From Anthracocystis setariae (lineage: Eukaryota; Basidiomycota; Ustilaginomycetes; Ustilaginales; Ustilaginaceae): 64,000 nucleotides of DNA. Where the stretch lies: the NCBI GenBank assembly GCA_928724745.1, contig CAKMXJ010000015.1:496001-560000 (forward strand). The letters are read 5' to 3'. Shown here one piece after another: positions 35,513 to 47,435 of the stretch. How positions within the stretch are numbered: position 1 is the stretch's first letter; every line of letters begins with the position of its first letter. The position numbers and the translations under genes were made by a program. Under the pieces are notes generated by a model. It searched no databases. It saw only the letters and a list, made by a program, of their open reading frames with translations, and was not told the origin of the DNA.

Positions 35513-38140
35513 GAACTCGCGGGGGGAACCGTTCAGCCGCTCTCCCCGCCTCGCCACCCTCCTGATAAAGGCCCTGCCTTGCCGATTATCGATGCTCACG
35601 ACCCTCCCGTTCCCACCTTCCATCTGCTGCCTTCCTATCTCCGTCTCCGCGTGCAACCGCCCAATGGCGCCTTAATTGAGGCTTGCTTGGACACCGGGTC
35701 CACCTTGTCTCTCATCGATCAATCCTTGCTGCAGACATTCGAGCATTCAATGACCGCCGACGCCATGGTCGTCGAGACCGCTAGCTCTCCAACCCGTACT
35801 CTGGGCGCTGCGGTCCTTACCCTTGACATTCCCTGCCCGCCGCAAGCAATTGCGCGCACCACCGTCAAATGCCACGTCCTTGCCCGCCTTCCTCCGCGCC
35901 TTATCCTTGGGATGGACTTCATCCTCGCTCACGGCATCCTCTTCGACGCCATCAAATCGGTCATTACCCTTCAGTCTTGTGGTCTGCGCACAGCGGTCAT
36001 TGTTGCGCGCACCACTCCCACGCCGTCGCCCATCGTCGCCCACATCAGCCCTCCTCCTGATGGGGTCCTCGCTCCGGACATGCGCGCCCCACCTGATATG
36101 GACGATTATACGCTTCCCTTTACCATCGTACCTGATCAGCCACATTCTGACGCGTTACCGACCTTTGATGCCGACCTTCCTCCCGCCGACCGAGACAAGT
36201 TCCTAACGCTCTTCGAACGCTATCCAGCCGTCTGGCATCCCGGCCTAGGGCTGCTCACGACAGGAGACGCCATGCGTCTGCCTTCGCCCGACCTGGACGC
36301 TAACCCGCAAAAGTTCAAACCGCGCCTGTATCGAGTTTCCCCCCGAGATCGTCAAGCTATCGACGAGGTCTTTGACGAACTCGCTCGTCAAGGCCGGCTT
36401 CATAAGGCGCCCCCAGGAACGCCTTGCGGGTGGCCAGTTTTTGTCGTCTATCGAAATGGTAAGCCCCGTCCCGTTGTCGATCTCCGCCAGCTCAACGCCG
36501 TCGTCACGCCCGACCATTACCCCCTCCCGACCCCAGATGAACTCCGCGAGCGCTTGGCCGGCGCTCAGTTCATCACAACGTTCGACCTGCGCAAGGCATT
36601 CTACCAGATGCCTTTGCACAAGGAAGACAGGTGGAAAGCCACAGTGCTGACGCACCGTGGCCAGGAGATGCTCTCCTGCACCATCATGGGGCAGTCCCGG
36701 TCCGTGGCGTTCCTTCAGCGCACCCTCACTGATGCTTTCGCTGCTGCTGGCCTCAGCGCAAAGACCTTCATCTACGTCGATGACCTTGGTGTACGCTCCG
36801 CTACCTTGGACGAACATCTGCGGGACGTTGACGCTGTTCTCGCCGTCATCCACCGCCTTGGGCTTACCTTGGCTCGAGATAAGGCCCATGTTGCCCGTCG
36901 TGAAGTGCCCTTGCTGGGTCACTTGGTCTCTGGAGCTGGTACTCGTACATTACCTTCCAAGTGCGATGCAATTCAACGCATTGAGTATCCACAGACTCTT
37001 AATCAGCTTGAGCACGTCATAGGTTTCTTTTCCTATTATAAGAACTATGTTTCTCGCTTCGCCGCCATCATTCGTCCACTCCAGCGCATCAAAACTCAAC
37101 TACTGCGCGGAGCCCCCACGGGTGGCCAAGCGCGGAAGAAGCATTGCTCCTCGACTCAGGTTCCTCACGACCCGGCCGCCCTTCAAGCGCTGCGCGAACT
37201 CAAGGCCATTCTCCAGGACAAGGTTCTACATTTCCCCGACTACGCCAAGCCCTTCTTGCTATACGTTGACGCATCACAGCAGCATGGTTTCGCTCTTGCG
37301 CTGCATCAAAACGTGGACGCCCCATCTTCAACGCCTCCGCAACAAGCCGAAATCCCAATCTGGTTCGACTCCCGAGCTCTGCAACCTACGGAACGGACTT
37401 ATTGGCCGACGGAGCTAGAGGCTGCCGCCGCGGTCTGGGCCTTGCAGCGGGTCAAGAGATTTCTCGATGCCTCGCCCGGTCCCCACCTGCTCTTCACCGA
37501 TCACCAAGCAGTTACGTCCATCGCGGACGCTAAACCTTTCTCCACTACCCCCGCAGCGCACAATCCACGCCTCGTACGGTTTGCCCTGATCCTCGCCGAA
37601 TTTCGACCAAAGCTTACCATTCTTCACCGCAAAGGGATCTACATGACACACGTCGACGCGCTGAGTCGAATCCAAGCAGCCGAGGAGACCGGCTTAGTAG
37701 CGCACGCCCACAGCGTTACCCTTAGCCCTTCTCTGCGGCACGACGTACTCACGAGCCAGGAGGCGGATCAGGCTTTCACGCGCATACGTTCTGATTTGGT
37801 CGCCAAGGCCGGCGATCAGCGCCCCTTTCAGAGCGGCGCCTTCGGCCTCAAGGAGGATAACTTAATCTACAAGGTTGACGAGGATGGCACTTGGCGTCTC
37901 TGTATCGGTCCTTCCGCCCTTCCTCGTCTTATAGCTCTTGCGCACACGGGCCATCTCGGCGTGAAGGCAACCTTCGACCGCTTCCGGCAAGTAGGTTATG
38001 CACCGCACCTTCTTTGACACGTCGACGACTTTGTCCGCCGGTGCACTCATTGCCAGCAAACGGCCACGCACCGTCATCGCCCCTATGGATCTCTCCAGCC
38101 CCTCGCAAGTCCTGCTATCCCCTTTGTCACTCTCTCCTGT
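35513..38140 (+). pseudogene. gypsy Pol, 5' part (protease, RT, RNase H, start of integrase)
   Basis: This is the same frame as Gag, open from the TAG at 35510. It holds an aspartic protease (CLDTGSTLSLID near 35690), a reverse transcriptase with GQSRSVAF and IYVDDLGV (about 36690-36790), RNase H (LLYVDASQQHG near 37260, LLFTDHQA near 37490), and the integrase zinc-binding His/Cys region (HTGHLG near 37945, CTHCQQ near 38043). A TGA at 38015-38017 interrupts it between the His and Cys pairs, where a coding triplet is expected. The copia element then inserts at 38140/38141. No ATG is needed if it is expressed by readthrough. Confidence 0.88.
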
Positions 38141-38410
38141 TATTAGATTCTAAAAGTCAATCGATGCGAAGTAGCTATCGCGGCGTTAGTTTATCCAATG
38201 TTAGATACGACTTACAACACTCGGTAATGGATGTTTGACATCCGATATCCTATTTCCTAAGTTGCGATCTTGGGAGAGTGTCGTGAGTCGTTAAGTCCGT
38301 GCTCGAACTATCACAGAGTTTGATGTCTGTGACTTAGTAATGCTAGGACAATATCGATATTGAACGGGGCGCAGCGGTTAGAAGCTTCGAAGGATTTGAA
38401 CGAGGAATGT

Positions 38411-38432
38411 CAACATCCAGTATCGGATGTTG
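38411..38432. repeat. palindrome copy in LTR, arm class CATCC/GGATG
   Basis: CAACATCC and GGATGTTG, perfectly complementary 8-bp arms around AGTATC. The matching copy in the other LTR is at 45730-45751. Confidence 0.9.
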
Positions 38433-38859
38433 ATGCTAGTCGTCAGATCTTATAAATCGATAAGTAAGGCAGTGATTCGATGATCTATTCACTCTCTCGG
38501 GTTCTGGTCCCGAGTCTTATATACATGTGCCTTGACCCTAACTTGTACAGCGAAGGTGTCCCCATCTTCGCCATACATCCTATGCGCTTCCTATAGTAAC
38601 TATCCTGTCCTCCGTCTGTTTCCCCAGCACTCGTTATTGAGCGTTTCTCTTCATCGTGTGTGCCTTCATTCCGCTACTGAGTCTCGCATCTCGGTTATGA
38701 TTGGTTCGGATCTTGTCCGCCCGTCCTTCTCTCCTCTTCCATGCTGGGCAGAAGGTTCCATTCGGGGCGGACCGGTTTGCCATCCTTCCAATGCGGTCTT
38801 GCCATTCGGCGATGAGTGTGTGGGTTCGTAATTGAGGTTCGTGATTCGTCGAGTAGTCT

Positions 38860-38881
38860 CAACATTTAGTATCGAATGTTG
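38860..38881. repeat. palindrome copy in LTR with extended arms
   Basis: The arms extend outward as GTCTCAACATT / AATGTTGAGAC, 11 bp on each side of an 8-nt centre. The matching copy in the other LTR is at 46179-46200. Confidence 0.9.
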
Positions 38882-38996
38882 AGACCCGTTGATGGACCAA
38901 TGGGAGTACTGTCGGGTGTCGCGTGGGTACGGGAAAATGTCTAAATCCGCCCGGCGAACATTGAGACCGGCGTCTCGATATTCGCCAATGCGTGTG

Positions 38997-39018
38997 CAAC
39001 ACTCATTACTGAGTGTTG
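38997..39018. repeat. palindrome copy in LTR, arm class CACTC/GAGTG
   Basis: CAACACTCA and TGAGTGTTG, 9-bp perfect arms around TTAC. The matching copy is at 46316-46337. Confidence 0.9.
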
Positions 39019-39082
39019 TGTGCCGATATGTGATGTGCCCGATTGCGAGATGAAAAGCCGATTCGTAAAGTCGAATCCAACA

Positions 39083-39094
39083 GTCCCCCTCATC
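39083..39094 (-). promoter_or_regulatory. copia polypurine tract
   Basis: On the element's strand the purine run GATGAGGGGGAC ends directly at the 3' LTR, as expected for plus-strand priming. Confidence 0.7.
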
Positions 39095-39156
39095 GAGCAC
39101 TCACATCACACGGCACAGACATATACAATGGGATTGGAAACATGAACATTAGATCG

Positions 39157-40857
39157 CTACTCTTCGTTATCCTGGTCCGCGTTGTTACGTCCAGTCTTGC
39201 GTCCGACGAGTGCTTCACGCTCGTCGAACATCTTCCGAAGAGTGCCGGCAATCCTAATGACGTTGGCCGGAGTCCAGAGGCGAGGCTTGTTCTTCTCGCC
39301 TCTCACGTTCCTGTCGCCTTTGATTCCTGCTTCTGCTGCTTGTCGCAGCTCCTCCAGTCCTGCTCGAATCTCACCCGCGAGTACCACTCGTCGGGTGCGC
39401 TTCCCTTCGAAGCCCGTTCCTCGGCAGATCCGGCCGCTGACGATGCAAGCGTCGCAGGCACCCTTGTCTGTTGCGCGATTCCGGCCCATGTGGTTGACAC
39501 CGGCGCCGTACGTGCAAAGGATCCTGCGCATCTCGCAGGGCTTGCACGACGGCTCGGCGACGCGGAATCCGGGATGCAGGTCGTCACCATGCTTGGGGAA
39601 GTGCTCGGATGAGCAACGTACTTCCCCAGCAGGTACGACGAACCTGCGTTGCTTCTCCAGGCCGATATCGGGGTCCATTGGCCCGGACCAAGCAAGATGC
39701 GGTGGCAAGGGCCACCTCGCGCATCCACCAGCGGGCTCGGGTGCCAGGCTGGGAGGGTCTCGACGAGAGGCGCTTGCATCCTCTTCGTCGTCGTCGTCGA
39801 TGAGATTGCCCTCGTCGTCCTGGGGGCATCGGAAGAGGGATTGCTGGCTGGGCGGGGGGAGCTCAGCGGCGATCGTGTTGGAGGAGGTGGAAGCGAGGGA
39901 GGTGACGTTGCGCGTCGACCTCAACCTCAAACCGCCTGTGCTCGGTCGAGTGGATGCAGGCGTCGTGGGTGCCGTGCTCTCCGGAGCAGAGGGCGGCGAG
40001 AATGATCCATCCGTCGTGCCACGCCGGGCAGGGGGCGAAGGTGAAGTCGTGTCTCTTGAGGTGGACCGCGATGACGCCGAGCCACGATTGGCAGGCGACG
40101 GAGGTGGGGAAAGTGGTACTCGAATGGGCGGTGGAGATTCCGATGCTGCGCCTGTTGAGGCGGGCAGCGGTGAGTCCGAGCCACGGGTGGCGGACGGCGA
40201 GATCGAAAGCAGCTGCACTTCCCCGTGGAAGGCAGGCAAGAGATGGGGAGGAGTCGTGCCTGTTGAGGCGGGGGGAGTGGTCGTTGAGGTAATGGCCGTG
40301 TCGCGATTGACAGAGGGCCCGGCGGAGTCGTTCCTAGCCATGCTGTCGACAGCAGAGGGCTCGTCATCGTCGATGTCCATGGCATCCGGGCCAGAGGGAC
40401 AAGTCGTTGGTGCCGTGGTGGTGACGGCGGCGTTGTCGGTGGTGGTGGTGTTCGCCGTCTGAGCTGCGCGCCTCGCGGCGGCAGCTAGTACGGCCCGGCG
40501 TTGGGCCTCTCGTTGTTTCTTGGACATCGCCATTGTCGACGGCGGAGGAAAGGAGTGTAGTGGTGGTGGTGAGGAAGGAAGAGAGAGAGAAGGAGGAGAA
40601 GAAGGAGAAGAGAGAGGAGGCGAAGGGGCTGAGTTCAGGATCTCTTTGTCTTCTTCCGCCTTCTCTCTTTGTCTGATTGTTCGGTTCTCCGCAAGTAGGG
40701 TCGGTGACATTCCTATAGTGCGTTCTCCAAGTCTGGCTCGCTTCTTCGAGGGCACTTGAGCGGTGTGAGAGTTTGTAGATGCTGTTCTGCGCAGCCGTTT
40801 AATGAAGTCGATGCGCCGCGAATGCGCAGAAGATATTCGGTTTCGGGTTACTGACAT
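39157..40857 (-). CDS. extra ORF of the copia element, zinc-cluster protein
   Basis: Predicted 566-aa protein on the same strand as pol, between pol and the 3' LTR, where copia elements normally have no gene. The N-terminal 330 residues are Ser/Thr/Pro/Ala-rich with a basic KKQREAQRR segment. At about 437-478 there are two CX2CX6C triplets (CKPCEMRRILC and CDACIVSGRIC) separated by 19 residues, the cysteine pattern of a fungal Zn2Cys6 binuclear cluster with a long linker. A basic stretch follows the cluster (GKRTRR). The start ATG lies in one of the element's palindromes; a start at 40533 (MAMSKKQRE) is possible. Base composition is markedly GC-richer than gag-pol, suggesting a captured gene. 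The function is unknown. Confidence 0.7.
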   Translation of the reverse strand: MSVTRNRISSAHSRRIDFIKRLRRTASTNSHTAQVPSKKRARLGERTIGMSPTLLAENRTIRQREKAEEDKEILNSAPSPPLSSPSSPPSLSLPSSPPPLHSFPPPSTMAMSKKQREAQRRAVLAAAARRAAQTANTTTTDNAAVTTTAPTTCPSGPDAMDIDDDEPSAVDSMARNDSAGPSVNRDTAITSTTTPPASTGTTPPHLLPAFHGEVQLLSISPSATRGSDSPLPASTGAASESPPPIRVPLSPPPSPANRGSASSRSTSRDTTSPSPPARRGTTDGSFSPPSAPESTAPTTPASTRPSTGGLRLRSTRNVTSLASTSSNTIAAELPPPSQQSLFRCPQDDEGNLIDDDDEEDASASRRDPPSLAPEPAGGCARWPLPPHLAWSGPMDPDIGLEKQRRFVVPAGEVRCSSEHFPKHGDDLHPGFRVAEPSCKPCEMRRILCTYGAGVNHMGRNRATDKGACDACIVSGRICRGTGFEGKRTRRVVLAGEIRAGLEELRQAAEAGIKGDRNVRGEKNKPRLWTPANVIRIAGTLRKMFDEREALVGRKTGRNNADQDNEE

Positions 40858-40873
40858 TCAGTACTGAATGTGG
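40852..40873. repeat. palindrome copy at start of the extra ORF
   Basis: 18-bp perfect core ACATTCAGTACTGAATGT (40854-40871). The ATG of the extra ORF is the CAT at 40855-40857 read on the minus strand. Confidence 0.9.
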
Positions 40874-41030
40874 CGGCGGTGTGTGAGCTTTGGGAGGGCC
40901 GATAATTGTTTTTGGTTGACCTTCGTAGGTCTTTTTATCCTTTTTCTGATTTTTTGTTTCGTGTTTGAATTTTCCTTGAGGCGTTTCGGCAAGCTGTCAA
41001 GTAATGCCGGGTATTTACATAGACAGGGTC

Positions 41031-41052
41031 CAACATTCATTACTGAGTGTTG
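41031..41052. repeat. palindrome copy containing the gag-pol stop codon
   Basis: CAACATTC / GAGTGTTG around ATTACT. The TAA ending gag-pol is at 41040-41042, inside this copy. Confidence 0.9.
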
Positions 41053-44000
41053 GGTTTCATTGTCGGTTTTTGGCATTGGATCCCGAGTGCGTCCCTGTTG
41101 GTCGTAATTTTATTCTTCTCGAGCGCCTTTGTCAGGATATCGGCCAATTGATCGTTTGTCGATACTGGTTTCACAGAGAGCACACCTGATTCCTGGTACT
41201 CTCGTGTGATGTGGTACTTGAGCCTAAAATGTTTAGTTCTGTTATGGAACTTCGGCTCTTTGCTGAGCTCGATTGCTGCTCTGTTGTCTACCATGAGGTC
41301 TGTCGGAGTTTTGATTTGCAGGCCGAGTTCAGACATTACCCATCGAGTCCATATGATCTCCTTACCGGCCTCTGCCATCGCGACGTATTCAGCGTATGTG
41401 GTGGAGTCCGTGATGATCGACTGGAGTTTCGATACCCAGCTGTACGGCATTGAAGCGACAGTGTTGACAATTCCAGATGTGGATCGCGATGTCTCAGTGT
41501 CCCCCGCGTGATCTGCATCGGTGAATGTGCGCAACCATTTTCCAAAGTCAACATTCGATGCTGAATGTTGGGAATCGAGTATGCGTCTGTACATTAGTCC
41601 GTGCGTGTTGGTTCCCTTGAGGTAACGGAGTAGGTGTTTCGCTTGGACCATGGCATTTGCATGTGGATGTGCGAGTTCTTGGCTGAGCTTTTGGATTGCG
41701 AAGGCGATGTCAGGCCTGGTGCAGGTAGCTATGTATAGCATCTGGCCGATGATGCTTCTGTACGTGGAGTGTTCTTGTGGGGGGAGTGGTTCCCCTCCTT
41801 TGAGGTCGCTGCTTGGATTAAGTGGTGTATGGACAATGTTTGCGGAGTCTAAGCCATATGTTGTGAGGAGGCGATTGATGTAGCTGGTCTGCGTAAGGTG
41901 GATCGTCTTCGAAGTCTGGTCGACTTGTATGCCAAGGATGTAATCCAGTAGTTCGCCGCCGGTCATTTTGAAGTGTTTTCGAAGCTCGGTCATGACACTG
42001 GAGGCTGAATCCTTGTTCTCAGCGAAGATAAGGATATCATCAACGTAGAGTGTTAAGATCACGCGACCAGTCTCAACATTCGATGCTGAATGTTTGATGT
42101 ACAGAGCCGAGTCATGCTTGCTCCTTGTGAATCCCATTCCTCGTAATGTGGAATCCGCCTTGTGATACCAAGTCCGCCCAGCTTGTTTGAGTCCGTAGAG
42201 TGACTTATTGAGTTTACAGACCGTTCCATCGGGTGATCCTCGCGGATGCTCTGGTGTTGGCGGCGGCCTCATGTAGAGGTCTTTGTCGATCTCGCCATTC
42301 AGGTATGCGGTCGAGACATCCATCTGGTAAATGCTCCATCCAACTTGTAAACTGATGATCATCAAGAGTCTTAGAGTGGAGATCTTGACTACTGGGGCGA
42401 AGGTTTCATCATAGTCGATGCCGTGTTTCTGGGCGAATCCTTGAGCCACGAGCCTTGCTTTGTACTTGTCGATCGATCCATCTGACTTTCTCTTAATCTT
42501 GAAGACCCATCGGCTACCGATGATATTGGATCCAGATGGTGGTTTAGTCATTGTCCATGTGTTGTTGTCTTTGTGTGACAGAAGTTCTTTATCGATTGCT
42601 TCTTTCCACAAGTTCCAGTCTGGTCTTCGATACGCTTGGGCGATTGTGCGAGGTTCATTATCGAGTTGGCCAACTGGATCGGTGGTCTCAACATCTGATA
42701 CCGAATGTTCCAACTCGTCGACGATTTCTCGTACCGCGTTGGCCTGGAGTCTTGGCGATCCCGGCGGTGACCCAGGAGGAGTCGCTATTCCTTGCGCGCG
42801 TTCTTCTGGGGTAAGGTAAGGCAAAGTATTGCGCTCAGGGATTTCGTTGAGGGTTGCGACATCTGTGTTGTTGGTGCGTGTTTCGGTGGGTGAGTCTCCA
42901 ACATTCAGTACTGGGTTGTCGTACTCGTCACTGGATGTTGGTAATCTTGCGTCTGATTCGCGAATCCCAGCGAAGGGAAATGAGGTCTCGTCGAAGGTGC
43001 AGTGAACCTGTGTCAGGTATTGACATTCGTCCTTATCGTATAGCTTGTAAGCCTTGGTTCCTGGTGTCACACCGAGGTATACGCAAGGCACAGCTCGATT
43101 GTCCAAAGTGGTTCGTTTTTCGGCGGGAATATGGGCAAAAGCTGCACATCCGAAGGTGCGTACCATAGTCAAGTCCGTAGGTCTACCATATAGCGCTTCG
43201 TATGGTGTCTTCATGCCGTTTCCTTTTGTTGGTAACCGATTGTTGAGGTATACAGCATGCAGGAGTGCGTCACCCCACATGGTGTCTGGGACGCTTGACT
43301 GAATCATGATGCAACGTACTATGTTGAAGAGCGTTCGATTCATTCTCTCCGCGACACCATTCTGCTCGGGAGCGAACGGTGATGTCCGTTCGTGCAGTAT
43401 GCCGTGTCGGCCAAGATAGTCTGCCATCTCGTTACTCGTGTACTCCCCTCCATTGTCAGTACGGAGTCGTTTCATCTGATTGCCAGTTTGCTTTTCCATG
43501 ACTGTCTTGTACTCTTGCAGGCATCCAAAGACTTCACTCTTGCGAGAAATGAGATAAACCATTGTGAATCGGGTACAATCGTCGATGAATGTGACTGCGA
43601 ACCGATGGCCTTGTGGAGTCTCATCTGGGATCGGACCCTTGACGTCGGAGTGTACAAGCTGAAGTGGGGTGTCAACACTCAGTACTGAGTGTTGGAAAGG
43701 CAGCTTGGATGATTTACCCACTTCGCAGGTTTCGCACTTGGATTGTGACTTTCGCGTGTCGATAGTCATTCCGGGGACTGATTTGGCAATCTCTTCAAGG
43801 CGTTGTTTTCCTGGATGTCCGAGGCGTTTGTGCCAGTCGTCGGCCTTGGTGCTGTGATCAGCGGCAAGTCCGGCAAAGTCTATACCGACTTGGTCGACGT
43901 ATGTGAGCGGTCCGATATGTACACCTCTGCAGGTGACTCTTCCGCTCCTAGTTTGGGCGATCGTTTGCTTGTCAGTCGTCGTAATTCTGACTTTCCTTCG

Positions 44001-45455
44001 CATGATTCCAGTCGATAGCAAATTGACGCTGAAAGATGGTATGTAGGCAACGTTGGTGAGGGTGATCCTATTGGTTAACCCGTTCCCTACGTTGACTTCC
44101 ATTTCTACAGTACCGAGTCCCTCGATCTTGACTGGGACATCGTTTGCAACCCAGATTGGTTTCATTGAGACGCCAATGTGAAGATCCGAGAAGAGATCTT
44201 TGTTACAGCAGATGTGTCTGCTCGCACCCGAGTCCATGAGCCACATCGTCGTTCGGGGATGTGTTGAGTCGGTAATTGAGTACGCGTTCTCATTATTGGG
44301 TCCCTGGACTCGGTTCTGAGTGTTTGACCCTGGATTATTGGATCCCCCGACTCGGTTCTGAATGTTTGACCCTGGCCGGTCTACCTTTGGGTTATTGCAG
44401 TTCCTTGACAAGTGCCCCTTTTGTTGGCAATTGTAACAAGTCATTTGTTCGATAGGGACCTTCTTCTTACTCTTGGACATTGGACGCTGAGTGTTCTTCT
44501 TTCCCTTCTTGTTCCCATCACTCGCGTAGTATGCCGAAGAGTTGTTCTTGTGTTTGCTTTCCAGTCCATGGTTGTTGAGTCCCAAGCGTAGTTCTTCACT
44601 CCTGAGCCTAGTGACGATGGAGTCGAGCTCGACTTTCTCGTCGATGGTCTGACTTGCGACAGTGAACATTTCGTTTTCGTTCCCAATCCTGTGTATGATC
44701 ATCTGTCCTTGTTCTCGGCGAGCTCGGTACGTTTCTTTGATCTGAGCCGCTATGTTCTCGTATTCCTTCCGTAGTCCTTTCATTAGGATACTGTACTTCT
44801 TGTGGAAGGTAATGGTATATCCAGCAAGCATGAGGTGATCTGCGAGTTGATTGATGCGACCGACGAAGCCGTCGATGGTTCGTCTGTCTTGCCTTAGGCT
44901 GTTGAATTCCGTCTCCATCTCTTCGAGCTGCCACTTCATGGATTTGGCAAATCGATCCTCGAGTGTCGTCCATATCTGGTGAGCGTCCTCGAGATCATTG
45001 ATGGTGTGCTTGATGTCGTTCGATAAGCTACTTCTGAGCATGCCGCATGCGGTCAGGTTTGCGTTCAGCCAATCTCCATATGTGATGTCGTCTTCTGATG
45101 GTCGGGGTAAAGTCCCTCTGACGATTTCGTACACCCGTATTCCCTTTTGCATCAATACATCGATACATTTATCTTTCCATGTGTAGTAGTCTTTGGCTTG
45201 TTCGAGTTTCGGTAGTCGCAGGTGGTTTTGCGATGCATTCGATTCCGTCATTGTGAACACAGATCCGGGTGTCGGCGAGTTGCGAGGGGTGTTGATATTC
45301 GTAGTTACGTTGGCGACACTCAGTAATGAGTTGTCGAATTCGTTAGTGTCTTGTGTGTCCCTGCTGATAGTTTCAGCGATCGAATCGAGGGGACGTGATC
45401 TTGAGCGAGTTCCTTGGTAGGTACCTTCAGAGTTTCCGTCAGGCGTTGGGCTCAT
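41040..45455 (-). CDS. copia Gag-Pol polyprotein
   Basis: Predicted 1471-aa uninterrupted polyprotein. Gag comes first with a CX2CX4HX4C zinc knuckle (CYNCQQKGHLSRNC, about residue 340). Next are protease (WLMDSGASRHIC, about 401), the integrase zinc-binding His and Cys pairs (about 545-580), and the integrase catalytic acids in HSDVKGP (about 600), RTDNGGEY (about 665) and PEQNGVAER (about 693). RT follows from about 985 with LVAQGFAQ and LYVDDILIF (about 1133), then RNase H (TDADHAGD about 1313, STTYAEYVA). The order PR-IN-RT-RH is diagnostic of copia. The start ATG lies within the primer-binding site. Short in-frame insertions reading HSxxxV coincide with palindromes. All catalytic motifs look intact. 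Confidence 0.95.
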   Translation of the reverse strand: MSPTPDGNSEGTYQGTRSRSRPLDSIAETISRDTQDTNEFDNSLLSVANVTTNINTPRNSPTPGSVFTMTESNASQNHLRLPKLEQAKDYYTWKDKCIDVLMQKGIRVYEIVRGTLPRPSEDDITYGDWLNANLTACGMLRSSLSNDIKHTINDLEDAHQIWTTLEDRFAKSMKWQLEEMETEFNSLRQDRRTIDGFVGRINQLADHLMLAGYTITFHKKYSILMKGLRKEYENIAAQIKETYRARREQGQMIIHRIGNENEMFTVASQTIDEKVELDSIVTRLRSEELRLGLNNHGLESKHKNNSSAYYASDGNKKGKKNTQRPMSKSKKKVPIEQMTCYNCQQKGHLSRNCNNPKVDRPGSNIQNRVGGSNNPGSNTQNRVQGPNNENAYSITDSTHPRTTMWLMDSGASRHICCNKDLFSDLHIGVSMKPIWVANDVPVKIEGLGTVEMEVNVGNGLTNRITLTNVAYIPSFSVNLLSTGIMRRKVRITTTDKQTIAQTRSGRVTCRGVHIGPLTYVDQVGIDFAGLAADHSTKADDWHKRLGHPGKQRLEEIAKSVPGMTIDTRKSQSKCETCEVGKSSKLPFQHSVLSVDTPLQLVHSDVKGPIPDETPQGHRFAVTFIDDCTRFTMVYLISRKSEVFGCLQEYKTVMEKQTGNQMKRLRTDNGGEYTSNEMADYLGRHGILHERTSPFAPEQNGVAERMNRTLFNIVRCIMIQSSVPDTMWGDALLHAVYLNNRLPTKGNGMKTPYEALYGRPTDLTMVRTFGCAAFAHIPAEKRTTLDNRAVPCVYLGVTPGTKAYKLYDKDECQYLTQVHCTFDETSFPFAGIRESDARLPTSSDEYDNPVLNVGDSPTETRTNNTDVATLNEIPERNTLPYLTPEERAQGIATPPGSPPGSPRLQANAVREIVDELEHSVSDVETTDPVGQLDNEPRTIAQAYRRPDWNLWKEAIDKELLSHKDNNTWTMTKPPSGSNIIGSRWVFKIKRKSDGSIDKYKARLVAQGFAQKHGIDYDETFAPVVKISTLRLLMIISLQVGWSIYQMDVSTAYLNGEIDKDLYMRPPPTPEHPRGSPDGTVCKLNKSLYGLKQAGRTWYHKADSTLRGMGFTRSKHDSALYIKHSASNVETGRVILTLYVDDILIFAENKDSASSVMTELRKHFKMTGGELLDYILGIQVDQTSKTIHLTQTSYINRLLTTYGLDSANIVHTPLNPSSDLKGGEPLPPQEHSTYRSIIGQMLYIATCTRPDIAFAIQKLSQELAHPHANAMVQAKHLLRYLKGTNTHGLMYRRILDSQHSASNVDFGKWLRTFTDADHAGDTETSRSTSGIVNTVASMPYSWVSKLQSIITDSTTYAEYVAMAEAGKEIIWTRWVMSELGLQIKTPTDLMVDNRAAIELSKEPKFHNRTKHFRLKYHITREYQESGVLSVKPVSTNDQLADILTKALEKNKITTNRDALGIQCQKPTMKPNTQ
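41549..41570. repeat. in-frame palindrome between RT and RNase H
   Basis: CAACATTC / GAATGTTG perfect arms around GATGCT. In the polyprotein frame it encodes QHSASNV, in the variable linker just before the RNase H motif TDADHAGD. Confidence 0.9.
42074..42095. repeat. in-frame palindrome just upstream of the RT YVDD block
   Basis: CAACATTC / GAATGTTT around GATGCT. It encodes KHSASNV in the loop preceding LYVDDIL. Confidence 0.88.
42689..42710. repeat. in-frame palindrome in the IN-RT linker
   Basis: CAACATCT / GAATGTTC around GATACC, a less perfect copy. It encodes EHSVSDV. Confidence 0.8.
42899..42940. repeat. split or duplicated palindrome in the IN-RT linker
   Basis: CAACATTCAGTACTGG at 42899 and CACTGGATGTTG ending at 42940 face each other across a 14-nt spacer, as if two copies overlapped or one was interrupted. 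Confidence 0.7.
43673..43694. repeat. perfect in-frame palindrome before the integrase core
   Basis: All 22 bases are self-complementary (arms CAACACTCAGT and ACTGAGTGTTG). It encodes QHSVLSV immediately before the first catalytic Asp block of integrase. Confidence 0.93.
44307..44375 (-). repeat. 42-bp tandem duplication in copia Gag
   Basis: The segment beginning GACTCGGTTCTGA at 44307 recurs at 44349 with one change in the part compared. The 42-nt period adds 14 residues (QNRV...NNPGSN repeat) and keeps the frame. Each repeat includes a degenerate half of the element palindrome. Confidence 0.8.
44475..44496. repeat. degenerate palindrome copy in Gag
   Basis: GGACATTG / GAGTGTTC around GACGCT. 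It is read in a different phase from the other coding copies (encodes NTQRPMS). Confidence 0.6.
45314..45335. repeat. in-frame palindrome near the Gag N-terminus
   Basis: CGACACTC / GAGTTGTC around AGTAAT, imperfect. It encodes DNSLLSV in the same phase as the copies in Pol. Confidence 0.75.
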
Positions 45456-45459
45456 AACC
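45448..45459 (-). promoter_or_regulatory. copia primer-binding site (half tRNA-iMet type)
   Basis: Directly after the 5' LTR, the element strand reads GGTTATGAGCCC, the exact complement of the initiator-tRNA anticodon stem-loop (GGGCUCAUAACC). Drosophila copia and yeast Ty5 prime from such an internal tRNA cleavage site. The gag-pol ATG (45455-45453) is inside it. Confidence 0.85.
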
Positions 45460-46401
45460 TATTAGATTCTAAAAGTCAATCGATGCGAAGTAGCTATCGC
45501 GGCGTTAGTTTATCCAATGTTAGATACGACTTACAACACTCGGTAATGGATGTTTGACATCCGATATCCTATTTCCTAAGTTGCGATCTTGGGAGAGTGT
45601 CGTGAGTCGTTAAGTCCGTGCTCGAACTATCACAGAGTTTGATGTCTGTGACTTAGTAATGCTAGGACAATATCGATATTGAACGGGGCGCAGCGGTTAG
45701 AAGCTTCGAAGGATTTGAACGAGGAATGTCAACATCCAGTATCGGATGTTGATGCTAGTCGTCAGATCTTATAAATCGATAAGTAAGGCAGTGATTCGAT
45801 GATCTATTCACTCTCTCGGGTTCTGGTCCCGAGTCTTATATACATGTGCCTTGACCCTAACTTGTACAGCGAAGGTGTCCCCATCTTCGCCATACATCCT
45901 ATGCGCTTCCTATAGTAACTATCCTGTCCTCCGTCTGTTTCCCCAGCACTCGTTATTGAGCGTTTCTCTTCATCGTGTGTGCCTTCATTCCGCTACTGAG
46001 TCTCGCATCTCGGTTATGATTGGTTCGGATCTTGTCCGCCCGTCCTTCTCTCCTCTTCCATGCTGGGCAGAAGGTTCCATTCGGGGCGGACCGGTTTGCC
46101 ATCCTTCCAATGCGGTCTTGCCATTCGGCGATGAGTGTGTGGGTTCGTAATTGAGGTTCGTGATTCGTCGAGTAGTCTCAACATTTAGTATCGAATGTTG
46201 AGACCCGTTGATGGACCAATGGGAGTACTGTCGGGTGTCGCGTGGGTACGGGAAAATGTCTAAATCCGCCCGGCGAACATTGAGACCGGCGTCTCGATAT
46301 TCGCCAATGCGTGTGCAACACTCATTACTGAGTGTTGTGTGCCGATATGTGATGTGCCCGATTGCGAGATGAAAAGCCGATTCGTAAAGTCGAATCCAAC
46401 A
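45460..46401 (-). repeat. copia 5' LTR
   Basis: 942 bp. It carries the same five palindromes as the other LTR, at 45534-45555, 45730-45751, 45944-45965, 46179-46200 and 46316-46337. Confidence 0.95.
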
Positions 46402-47435
46402 CCTGTGACTTCATCGTGCGCCTCCCCTCCGTCCGGTCCACCTTCGATCGGGACCTTCTTGATACCATTTTGGTCGTGACCGATACAGGTACACGGCGTA
46501 TCTACCTCCTGTCGGGCGCAGCCACTTGGTCGGCCGAAACCTGGAGTCTCCGGTTCGCAGAACGGCTTCTGCCTCATCTCGGCTGGCCGCAGAAAATTAT
46601 CAGCGACCGGGATTCACGCCTCACATCTCAATTCTGGCGTTCCCTCCACACTCAATATGGCTGCGAGCTCGTCTTTTCCACCGCGCATCATAAAAGCGAT
46701 GGTCAAAGCGAACGCGCCATCCAGTCAGTGGAAATGCTCCTCCGTGGGCTGTGTAATGCCTGGTCGGACGACTGGGCTGCCCATTTACCCCTAGTGGAGC
46801 TCCTGCTCGGCAACCGCGTCAACGCTTCCCTCAACGCGGCGCCTAACGACCTCCTCTACGGCCTCAAATTGCGAGATCCCTTCACGGCTCTTCAACCGGT
46901 CTCTGCGCTCGGCGATCTCACTCTTCCCGACCGTCGCATGGCGCTCAGGCAAGAGGCCCTCGACCATCTCGCTTCTGTACAGGCTTACATGAAGCAACGG
47001 TATGATCGTCTCCATTCTCCGCCCCCAAAGCTCCAAGTGGGCAACTGGGTTTGGCTTAACATCGGCGATGGATACGAAGTTCCCCGCAGCCAGCTGCCTC
47101 CAGACCGCCGTCTCGGCGTTCAACGTATCGGACCTTTTCCAATCAGCCGGGTGGTAAGTGACTTGGCATACGAGTTGACTCTTCCCTCCGACTCCCGTAT
47201 CCATCCAGTCGTTTCCATACAGCATTTGGAGCCATATGTCCCCTCCGGTAAGCCTCTCCTCTCCAACAAGATTGCAGTGATTCTCAAGGAACGTCACCTC
47301 AAGACTCGCGGCCACCAATTTCTCGTCCGCTATGACCACGCCGGTCGTGATCAATGGATCCCCGCTTCTGCCGTTACCGACTCTCTCGTTCTGGACGCCT
47401 GGCGCGCCCGGCAATCCCATTCTGCCTCTCCTTGA
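46402..47435 (+). pseudogene. gypsy Pol, 3' part (integrase core and chromodomain)
   Basis: Continuation of the gypsy integrase after the copia insertion. The frame is consistent with the first part once the insertion and one target copy are discounted. Catalytic residues are visible in VVTDTG, ISDRDSRLTSQFW and SDGQSERA (DDE). A GPFPISRVV block and a chromodomain-like end (LKTRGHQFLVRYDHAGRDQWIP) follow. There are no stops before 47435. It is cut off from its start, so non-functional here. Confidence 0.92.

Follow-up and report, generated by a model that had tools for sequence, protein, structure and literature searches.

A copia element and its palindromes

The window analyzed here is a 64,000-nucleotide stretch of the genome of the basidiomycete Anthracocystis setariae (contig CAKMXJ010000015.1, positions 496,001 to 560,000 of the forward strand), and all positions below are those of the window. 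It contains a single copy of a ~8.3-kb copia element (38141-46401) with genes on the minus strand, along which an imperfect 22-bp palindrome recurs. The element is bounded by two long terminal repeats (LTRs), one at the 3′ end of its genes (38141..39082, minus strand) and one at the 5′ end (45460..46401, minus strand), whose identity at 942 of 942 positions suggests a recent insertion, and it is flanked by a target site duplication, CCTGT, on the left (38136..38140) and right (46402..46406). The gag-pol open reading frame (ORF; 41040..45455, minus strand) encodes 1471 amino acids in the Ty1/copia domain order, the integrase domain (rve, residues 597-695) preceding the reverse transcriptase domain (RVT_2, residues 964-1212). 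With its LTRs, target site duplication and integrase upstream of reverse transcriptase, the element is a Ty1/copia LTR retrotransposon. A second ORF of 566 amino acids, ORF2 (39157..40857, minus strand), lies between pol and the 3′ LTR and is proposed to encode a self-specific DNA-binding protein. It harbors a cysteine ladder, C-X2-C-X6-C-X19-C-X2-C-X6-C (39424..39546, minus strand), which was the only match in the six frames of the window to the ladder pattern with wide spacing allowed.

An earlier, sequence-only reading of this DNA had counted about 20 palindromes, five in each LTR and about ten internally, and the count was borne out: a matrix scan at a threshold of at least 10 bits returned 20 sites in the element, five per LTR and 10 internal, versus 0.1 expected from shuffles of the element. 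With the pattern CAACAYTC-N6-GARTGTTG and up to 3 mismatches, 16 sites were found in the window versus 1.23 expected from shuffles. The palindromes do extend from 38215 to 46337, as had been stated, but the element itself is longer. Sites 1 to 5 of the LTR at the 3′ end of the genes lie at 38215..38236, 38411..38432, 38625..38646 (decayed), 38860..38881 and 38997..39018, and those of the partner LTR at 45534..45555, 45730..45751, 45944..45965, 46179..46200 and 46316..46337. Internally, one site was mapped over the ORF2 start codon (40852..40873), one over the pol stop codon (41031..41052) and eight within pol. Five of the latter were assigned to columns of the pol alignment described below, namely column 1309 (41549..41570), column 1134, seven residues before the LYVDD motif of the reverse transcriptase (42074..42095), column 929 (42689..42710), column 859, where the palindrome is half-decayed (42899..42920), and column 592, where it is a perfect 22-bp palindrome (43673..43694); the others are two weak sites (44304..44325 and 44346..44367) and one with an arm out of register (45314..45335). 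The sites are thus dispersed, with 8 of the 15 non-redundant ones located within pol.

The claim that the motif is missing elsewhere held for the window, where the same scan yielded no site in the other 55,728 bases, but not for the genome, in which 78 exact sites were found (and none when the pattern was read backwards). Fifty of the 78 were located: 47 within, or between fragments of, copies and LTRs of the same family, hereafter family A, and the remaining three in diverged LTR relics. Two LTR relics, L043 and L044, which match the window LTR at ~80% and 69% identity in the stretch that aligns, have kept a perfect palindrome at LTR site 5.

Two further observations concern the surroundings of the genes. 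The pol ATG stands a few bases from the LTR, within GGTTATGAGCCC (45438-45460), which we take to be complementary to the anticodon arm of the initiator tRNA, such that primer site and pol start codon may overlap. The element itself appears, judging by eye from translations, to lie within a gypsy-like polyprotein gene (35579-38140 plus 46402-47435), with the reverse transcriptase part on its left and the integrase part on its right.

Related families with palindromes of other sequence

Searches of the genome with ORF2 and pol identified at least 13 family A pol copies, 97-100% identical in amino acid sequence and two of them partial, as well as two further pol groups, B (~71% identical to A) and C (~66%), with ORF2 relatives of their own. 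Scoring covered the 32 best of 164 pol candidates, so that these family sizes are minimum values. A screen for 22-bp palindromes of any sequence, which covered 16 of 30 ORF2 loci, revealed AAACACGCAAGCTTGCGTGTTT-like sites in B loci and AACCCGACGTCGGGTT-like sites in C loci. When one element of each family was scanned at 10 bits or more with its own matrix, 20 sites were found in A, 23 in B and 18 in C, with 0.1-0.35 expected. Cross-family matches at this threshold were few: the A matrix found one site in B and none in C, the B matrix three in A and none in C, and the C matrix none in A and one in B. Genome-wide, the strict B and C patterns occurred 68 and 57 times, respectively, and not once when reversed. 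The body of ORF2 (39160-40850 in the window) is free of sites in A and likewise in B, while C has one weak site near the ORF2 start.

A dyad search that presupposed no motif (4-letter words, spacers of 0-16) put the same geometry first, ranking AACA-N12-TGTT at the top in both A (9 versus 0.15) and B (8 versus 0.10) and CCCG-N4-CGGG in C (10 versus 0.17), with top scores of 12.5-14.3 in the three families against null maxima of 5.8-6.2. When three other stretches of the window served as controls, no inverted repeat among the five top dyads listed for each exceeded the null, and runs of A in one of them gave direct repeats above it. Read outward from the dyad, the half-sites are ACTGARTGTTG in A, GTTGCGTGTTK in B, GTCGGGTTTTG in C and GTCGGTA in a more distant group, L039. 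All have a G at position +4, and the triplet from +3 to +5 is TGA in A, TGC in B and CGG in both C and L039. L037 and L038 were considered as a further family and rejected, both having C-type words and a C-like ladder; they are truncated C-type elements in the first bases of their contigs (G000:C6 and C8), adjoining CCCTAA telomere-like repeats.

One copy was fetched from each of four other copia groups (L039 to L042). The pol of L039 is 45% identical to that of A, and its ORF2 is homologous to that of A (hhalign E 2e-10). The 8-kb L039 locus has 34 TACCGACGTCGGTA-like sites, versus 7, 2 and 0 in those of the three remaining groups; 24 of these sites (up to 4 mismatches) were counted in its pol, versus 5.7, with a maximum of 12, in synonymous shuffles. 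L039 thus loosely repeats, as a fourth and more distant family, the pattern of A to C. L040 and L041 have a second ORF with a similar ladder (X6 and X15 in L040, X11 and X10 in L041) and faint similarity to the ORF2 profile of A to C. In L040 (695-7070; G000:C20), where this ORF is short and its ladder zinc-cluster-like, the word CGAAGTC occurs 20 times versus 2.6 expected. Over the seven groups, the association of ORF2 with a motif is clear in four, weak in one and fails in two.

Symmetry of the sites and their positions in pol

The sequence-only reading had sorted the arms into three matched classes (CATTC/GAATG, CACTC/GAGTG and CATCC/GGATG), a change in one arm being compensated in the other. 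This was not confirmed. When right halves were dealt to other sites (non-redundant sites, n = 15 in A, 18 in B and 14 in C), the A halves fitted their own partners at 111 of 165 positions versus 109.8 after re-pairing (P 0.41), and at 88 of 120 versus 84.0 if the outer 8 positions alone were scored (P 0.11). The corresponding figures were 109 of 154 versus 109.4 in C (P 0.61) and 145 of 198 versus 137.3 in B (P 0.045). Arm-to-arm compensation was therefore rejected for A and C and is marginal in B, and the classes themselves are mismatched at some sites, with CACTC facing GGATG at 38215 and CATTC facing GAGTG at 41031. The halves of a site fit each other about as well as re-paired halves, and both appear to approach one and the same half-site, as would be selected by a symmetric dimer. 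Nor is the 6-nt center a neutral spacer, dyad position +1 being conserved about as well as the arms and +2 less so in A. The last conserved dyad position is 11 for A, 10 for B and 9 for C, and a conserved stretch of 9-11 bp from the dyad is the size of a dimer footprint. Among the mechanisms that had been offered for the palindromy, binding of a protein dimer is the best fit, the two-fold symmetry being real and recurring in the sister families with other letters.

These data bear directly on the proposal that the sites form hairpins in the genomic RNA, serving packaging, dimerization or translation control, or cruciforms in DNA. In favor of hairpins, the sites are self-complementary and spread along the whole element, and B halves fit their own partners slightly better than re-paired ones. 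Against it stand the lack of any excess fit in A and C, where covariation does not go beyond the common half-site, and the conservation of the innermost bases although these are unable to pair. Mismatched pairs on the coding strand of the three families together comprised 40 A-C, 18 G-U and 69 of other kinds (A-C/G-U: 16/6 in A, 7/8 in B and 17/4 in C), which gives no hint that the sense RNA forms wobble pairs; in an antisense RNA the wobble count would be reversed, and such an RNA might pair. We thus regard RNA hairpins as highly improbable.

The positions of the sites within pol were next compared between families, sites being called on an alignment of A, B and C with matrices trained solely on non-pol sites. 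They coincided to the codon in 4 of 9 cases for A and B, 3 of 9 for A and C, and 4 of 11 for B and C, against 0.04-0.06 under random placement. Because the sites avoid conserved columns, a second null confined random placement to the 398 most variable of the 1482 columns (27%) and rose to 0.14-0.17; the observed coincidence was reached in 0 (A-B), 5 (A-C) and 0 (B-C) of 20,000 draws. Columns 592, 929 and 1134 are occupied by a site in each of A, B and C, and the reading frame is identical throughout. The family-specific words at these columns make the encoded peptides differ by family: QHSVLSVD, EHSVSDVE and KHSASNVE in A, KHATSRVE, EHATLRVD and KHATSRVD in B, and RNPTSGST, ENPTSGLD and KNPTSGSE in C. 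Among the three columns, sites of one family differ by 5-8 of 22 letters in A, 0-2 in B and 4-6 in C, whereas the same site differs by 5-14 of 22 letters between two families. That the columns are the same but the words different indicates that several positions are old and that the words were replaced together. When the synonymous codons of pol were shuffled, 2.4 sites in A, 3.5 in B and 5.0 in C remained at an 8-bit cut, since the peptides themselves carry the motif. The actual numbers of pol sites exceed those of the largest synonymous shuffle in A (9 versus 6) and B (11 versus 6).

Spread of whole units had also been offered as the source of the pattern, and mobile palindromic units, of which a Rickettsia type exists, might have inserted in frame and been kept alike by gene conversion with no binding function. 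The likeness of sites within a family agrees with this, as does column 1134, where A, B and C are 3 codons longer than two more distant families. At column 592, by contrast, A and B match these two families in length, and C has a single codon more. Common positions with different sequences in three families, and a homogeneity that ends at the edge of the 18-22 bp motif, are likewise hard to reconcile with mobile units. As the main process, such spread is not supported, the lengths at columns 592 and 1134 being mixed; we hold it to be scarcely less improbable than RNA hairpins.

ORF2 and the proposed self-recognition system

The C-terminal part of ORF2 has 42 of 222 columns invariant in 11 aligned members of A, B and C, and all six cysteines of the ladder are among them. 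The ladder has the spacing of Zn(II)2Cys6 proteins, C-X2-C-X6-C and then C-X2-C-X6-8-C, with a 19-residue linker that is longer than the rule for these proteins provides. The dN/dS ratio of the C-terminal domain was 0.07-0.14 in nine within-family pairs and that of the N-terminal part 0.33-0.47, indicating that ORF2 is under purifying selection. Between families, in contrast, the ORF2 domain is 38-44% identical versus 66-71% for pol. Searches of a protein database with ORF2 returned no match.

Established here are the sites, a sequence particular to each family, positions common to the families and, in ORF2, a conserved domain that contains a cysteine ladder and evolves under purifying selection. 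We consider that the palindromes are probably dispersed operators of a self-recognition system, to which ORF2, likely a Zn(II)2Cys6-like protein, would bind as a dimer with one monomer per half-site. The ~20 operators of an element would co-evolve with its ORF2, each sister family having changed the protein and rewritten the operators, several of them at identical pol positions, where the operator would largely dictate the peptide. In the simplest account, specificity would have shifted in each family from one ancestral zinc-cluster dimer, and the sites would have followed. Sites in the body of pol would be needless for a promoter activator and are what one might expect of a factor keeping silent chromatin off the whole element. 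By analogy with VANC (see below), coating of the LTRs and body may serve to keep the element transcribed by excluding host silencing, a suggestion that we make tentatively; plain auto-activation from the LTR, repression of copy number or a function on the cDNA may be served instead. Anti-silencing and transcriptional activation would together be the likeliest roles.

Repression of the element's own copies by ORF2, whether for copy-number control or dormancy, forms part of the likelihood accorded to ORF2 binding and draws on the same sequence evidence. The A palindrome at 40852-40873 includes the initial ATG of ORF2, a location that would suit an autoregulatory operator. Unlike A, the B and C elements scanned have no palindrome over the ORF2 start, and ~20 sites along the body would exceed the need of a promoter operator. 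Repression is, in our estimation, unlikely, although deserving of some weight.

Several results count against ORF2 as the reader of the palindromes. Regarding the protein, the window ORF2 had no match to Pfam Zn_clus, the best of its relatives reached 15.9 bits where the cut-off is 21, and a C member gave a sub-threshold half match (E 0.014). Comparisons with solved structures produced eleven chance-level matches in one case and none in the other, none of them relevant, and a single-sequence structure model of the ORF2 domain was unusable (pLDDT 37). Saturation of dS is near in several of the ORF2 pairs from which dN/dS was obtained. Even between B and B2, which have the same motif arms, the ORF2 domain is 73% identical and pol 93%; as ORF2 outpaces pol with unchanged arms, its divergence between families agrees with retargeting but is no proof of it. 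Regarding the sites, one of seven loci filed under B (L032) was without a palindrome in the first screen, and an 8-bit cut raises cross-family pol matches to 0-5. The 8 pol sites of C equal the maximum of the synonymous shuffles (8), no single word in A rose above the synonymous null, and one A-B column differs by 5 letters, inside A's own spread of 5-8. In LTR copies, conservation of the sites barely exceeded that of the flanking sequence (pooled P 0.11 over 17 of 18 loci, L045 being dropped as too short and gaps in the partly aligned L043 and L044 counting as differences). Among the more distant groups, the L040 motif is non-palindromic and borderline versus synonymous shuffles, L041 has a cysteine-ladder ORF2 and no detectable motif, and L042 (747-5236; G000:C5) is dense in TGCGCA, with 65 copies in 4.5 kb and none in the 2.5 kb around the element, yet has no ORF2.

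L042, whose pol contains TGCGCA-bearing words far above synonymous shuffles and encodes a polyprotein rich in AQ and AH pairs, shows that a dense dispersed motif may occur in an element devoid of ORF2. The palindromes of A to C might then be bound by host factors, each family being tuned to a different transcription factor or chromatin protein, and such binding would yield the same symmetry. Three families would, however, need three factors with the same dyad geometry and ~20 sites rewritten for each, and the A sites located, 50 of 78, all lie in family A-type DNA rather than at other loci. Host factors therefore strike us as quite unlikely, and binding by ORF2 remains our preferred reading.

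Fungal zinc-cluster factors of the Gal4/Leu3 type are one known counterpart of the protein, both halves of the ORF2 ladder having the C-X2-C-X6-C arrangement. Leu3 recognizes everted CGG triplets with a 4-bp spacer, and family C and L039 have CCG-N4-CGG. Unlike in these factors, the linker of A, B and C is 19 residues long, the Pfam cut-off is missed, TGA (A) and TGC (B) take the place of CGG, and conservation reaches 9-11 bp from the dyad.

A counterpart of the system as a whole is provided by the VANC anti-silencing proteins of VANDAL (MULE) DNA transposons in Arabidopsis, which, in the portions of the reports available, act through numerous short motifs whose sequence diverges from family to family (PMC5735166, PMC10398659). 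As would apply to the present elements, the protein is encoded by the element, its short motif is found chiefly in that family, related families have different motifs, with changes at many places at once, and the protein evolves new targets (same portions of PMC5735166 and PMC10398659). An element-specific motif that differs between related elements was likewise found here. VANC motifs, in the same descriptions, are 8-9 bases long and lie in noncoding tandem repeats of plant DNA transposons, whereas those of this fungal LTR retrotransposon are dispersed palindromes of 18-22 bp, partly in coding sequence (pol, for 8 of 15 non-redundant A sites) and at positions partly common to families (PMC5735166, PMC10398659). 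The sequence comparison of VANC with ORF2 proteins was through Pfam alone. Retand gypsy elements of plants also have an extra ORF between pol and the 3′ LTR, TRP28, with predicted DNA binding; this ORF is antisense, tandem repeats are present, and the accessible part of the account mentions no cognate dispersed motif (PMC11963269). Tuh3 of Ustilago hordei, likened here by description only, is a copia-type element of a smut, and the part of its account at hand mentions neither palindromes nor a second ORF (PMC4081816). In that species, 27 of 904 LTR retrotransposons are expressed in two conditions, according to the available part of PMC9603552. Among the papers matched in a search of the open-licence literature, none described an LTR retrotransposon that encodes its own zinc-cluster protein and has dispersed palindromes private to it. 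As far as we have seen, novelty lies in the carrier, in the dispersed design of the palindromes, in the placement of sites within coding sequence and in their replacement at positions common to several families; the way of acting would belong to a kind already known, like that of VANC.

On balance, we lean towards viewing these elements as a fungal copia clade with a zinc-cluster protein and ~20 private operators rewritten in concert, which dictate parts of the integrase/reverse transcriptase polyprotein and make up a self/non-self recognition system, a retrotransposon counterpart of VANC. A long-standing question is how the specificity of a DNA-binding protein can change when dozens of sites have to follow. 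Three to four related families in one genome represent end points of such changes, and since each 8-kb element carries both the protein and its putative sites, binding assays could address the question. If this view is correct, the families would constitute a natural record of a DNA-binding protein and its full site set changing specificity together, and would show DNA-level selection prevailing over protein sequence in the polyprotein of a retroelement. They would also extend to LTR retrotransposons and to fungi the self-specific anti-silencing that the accounts available describe for plant DNA transposons.

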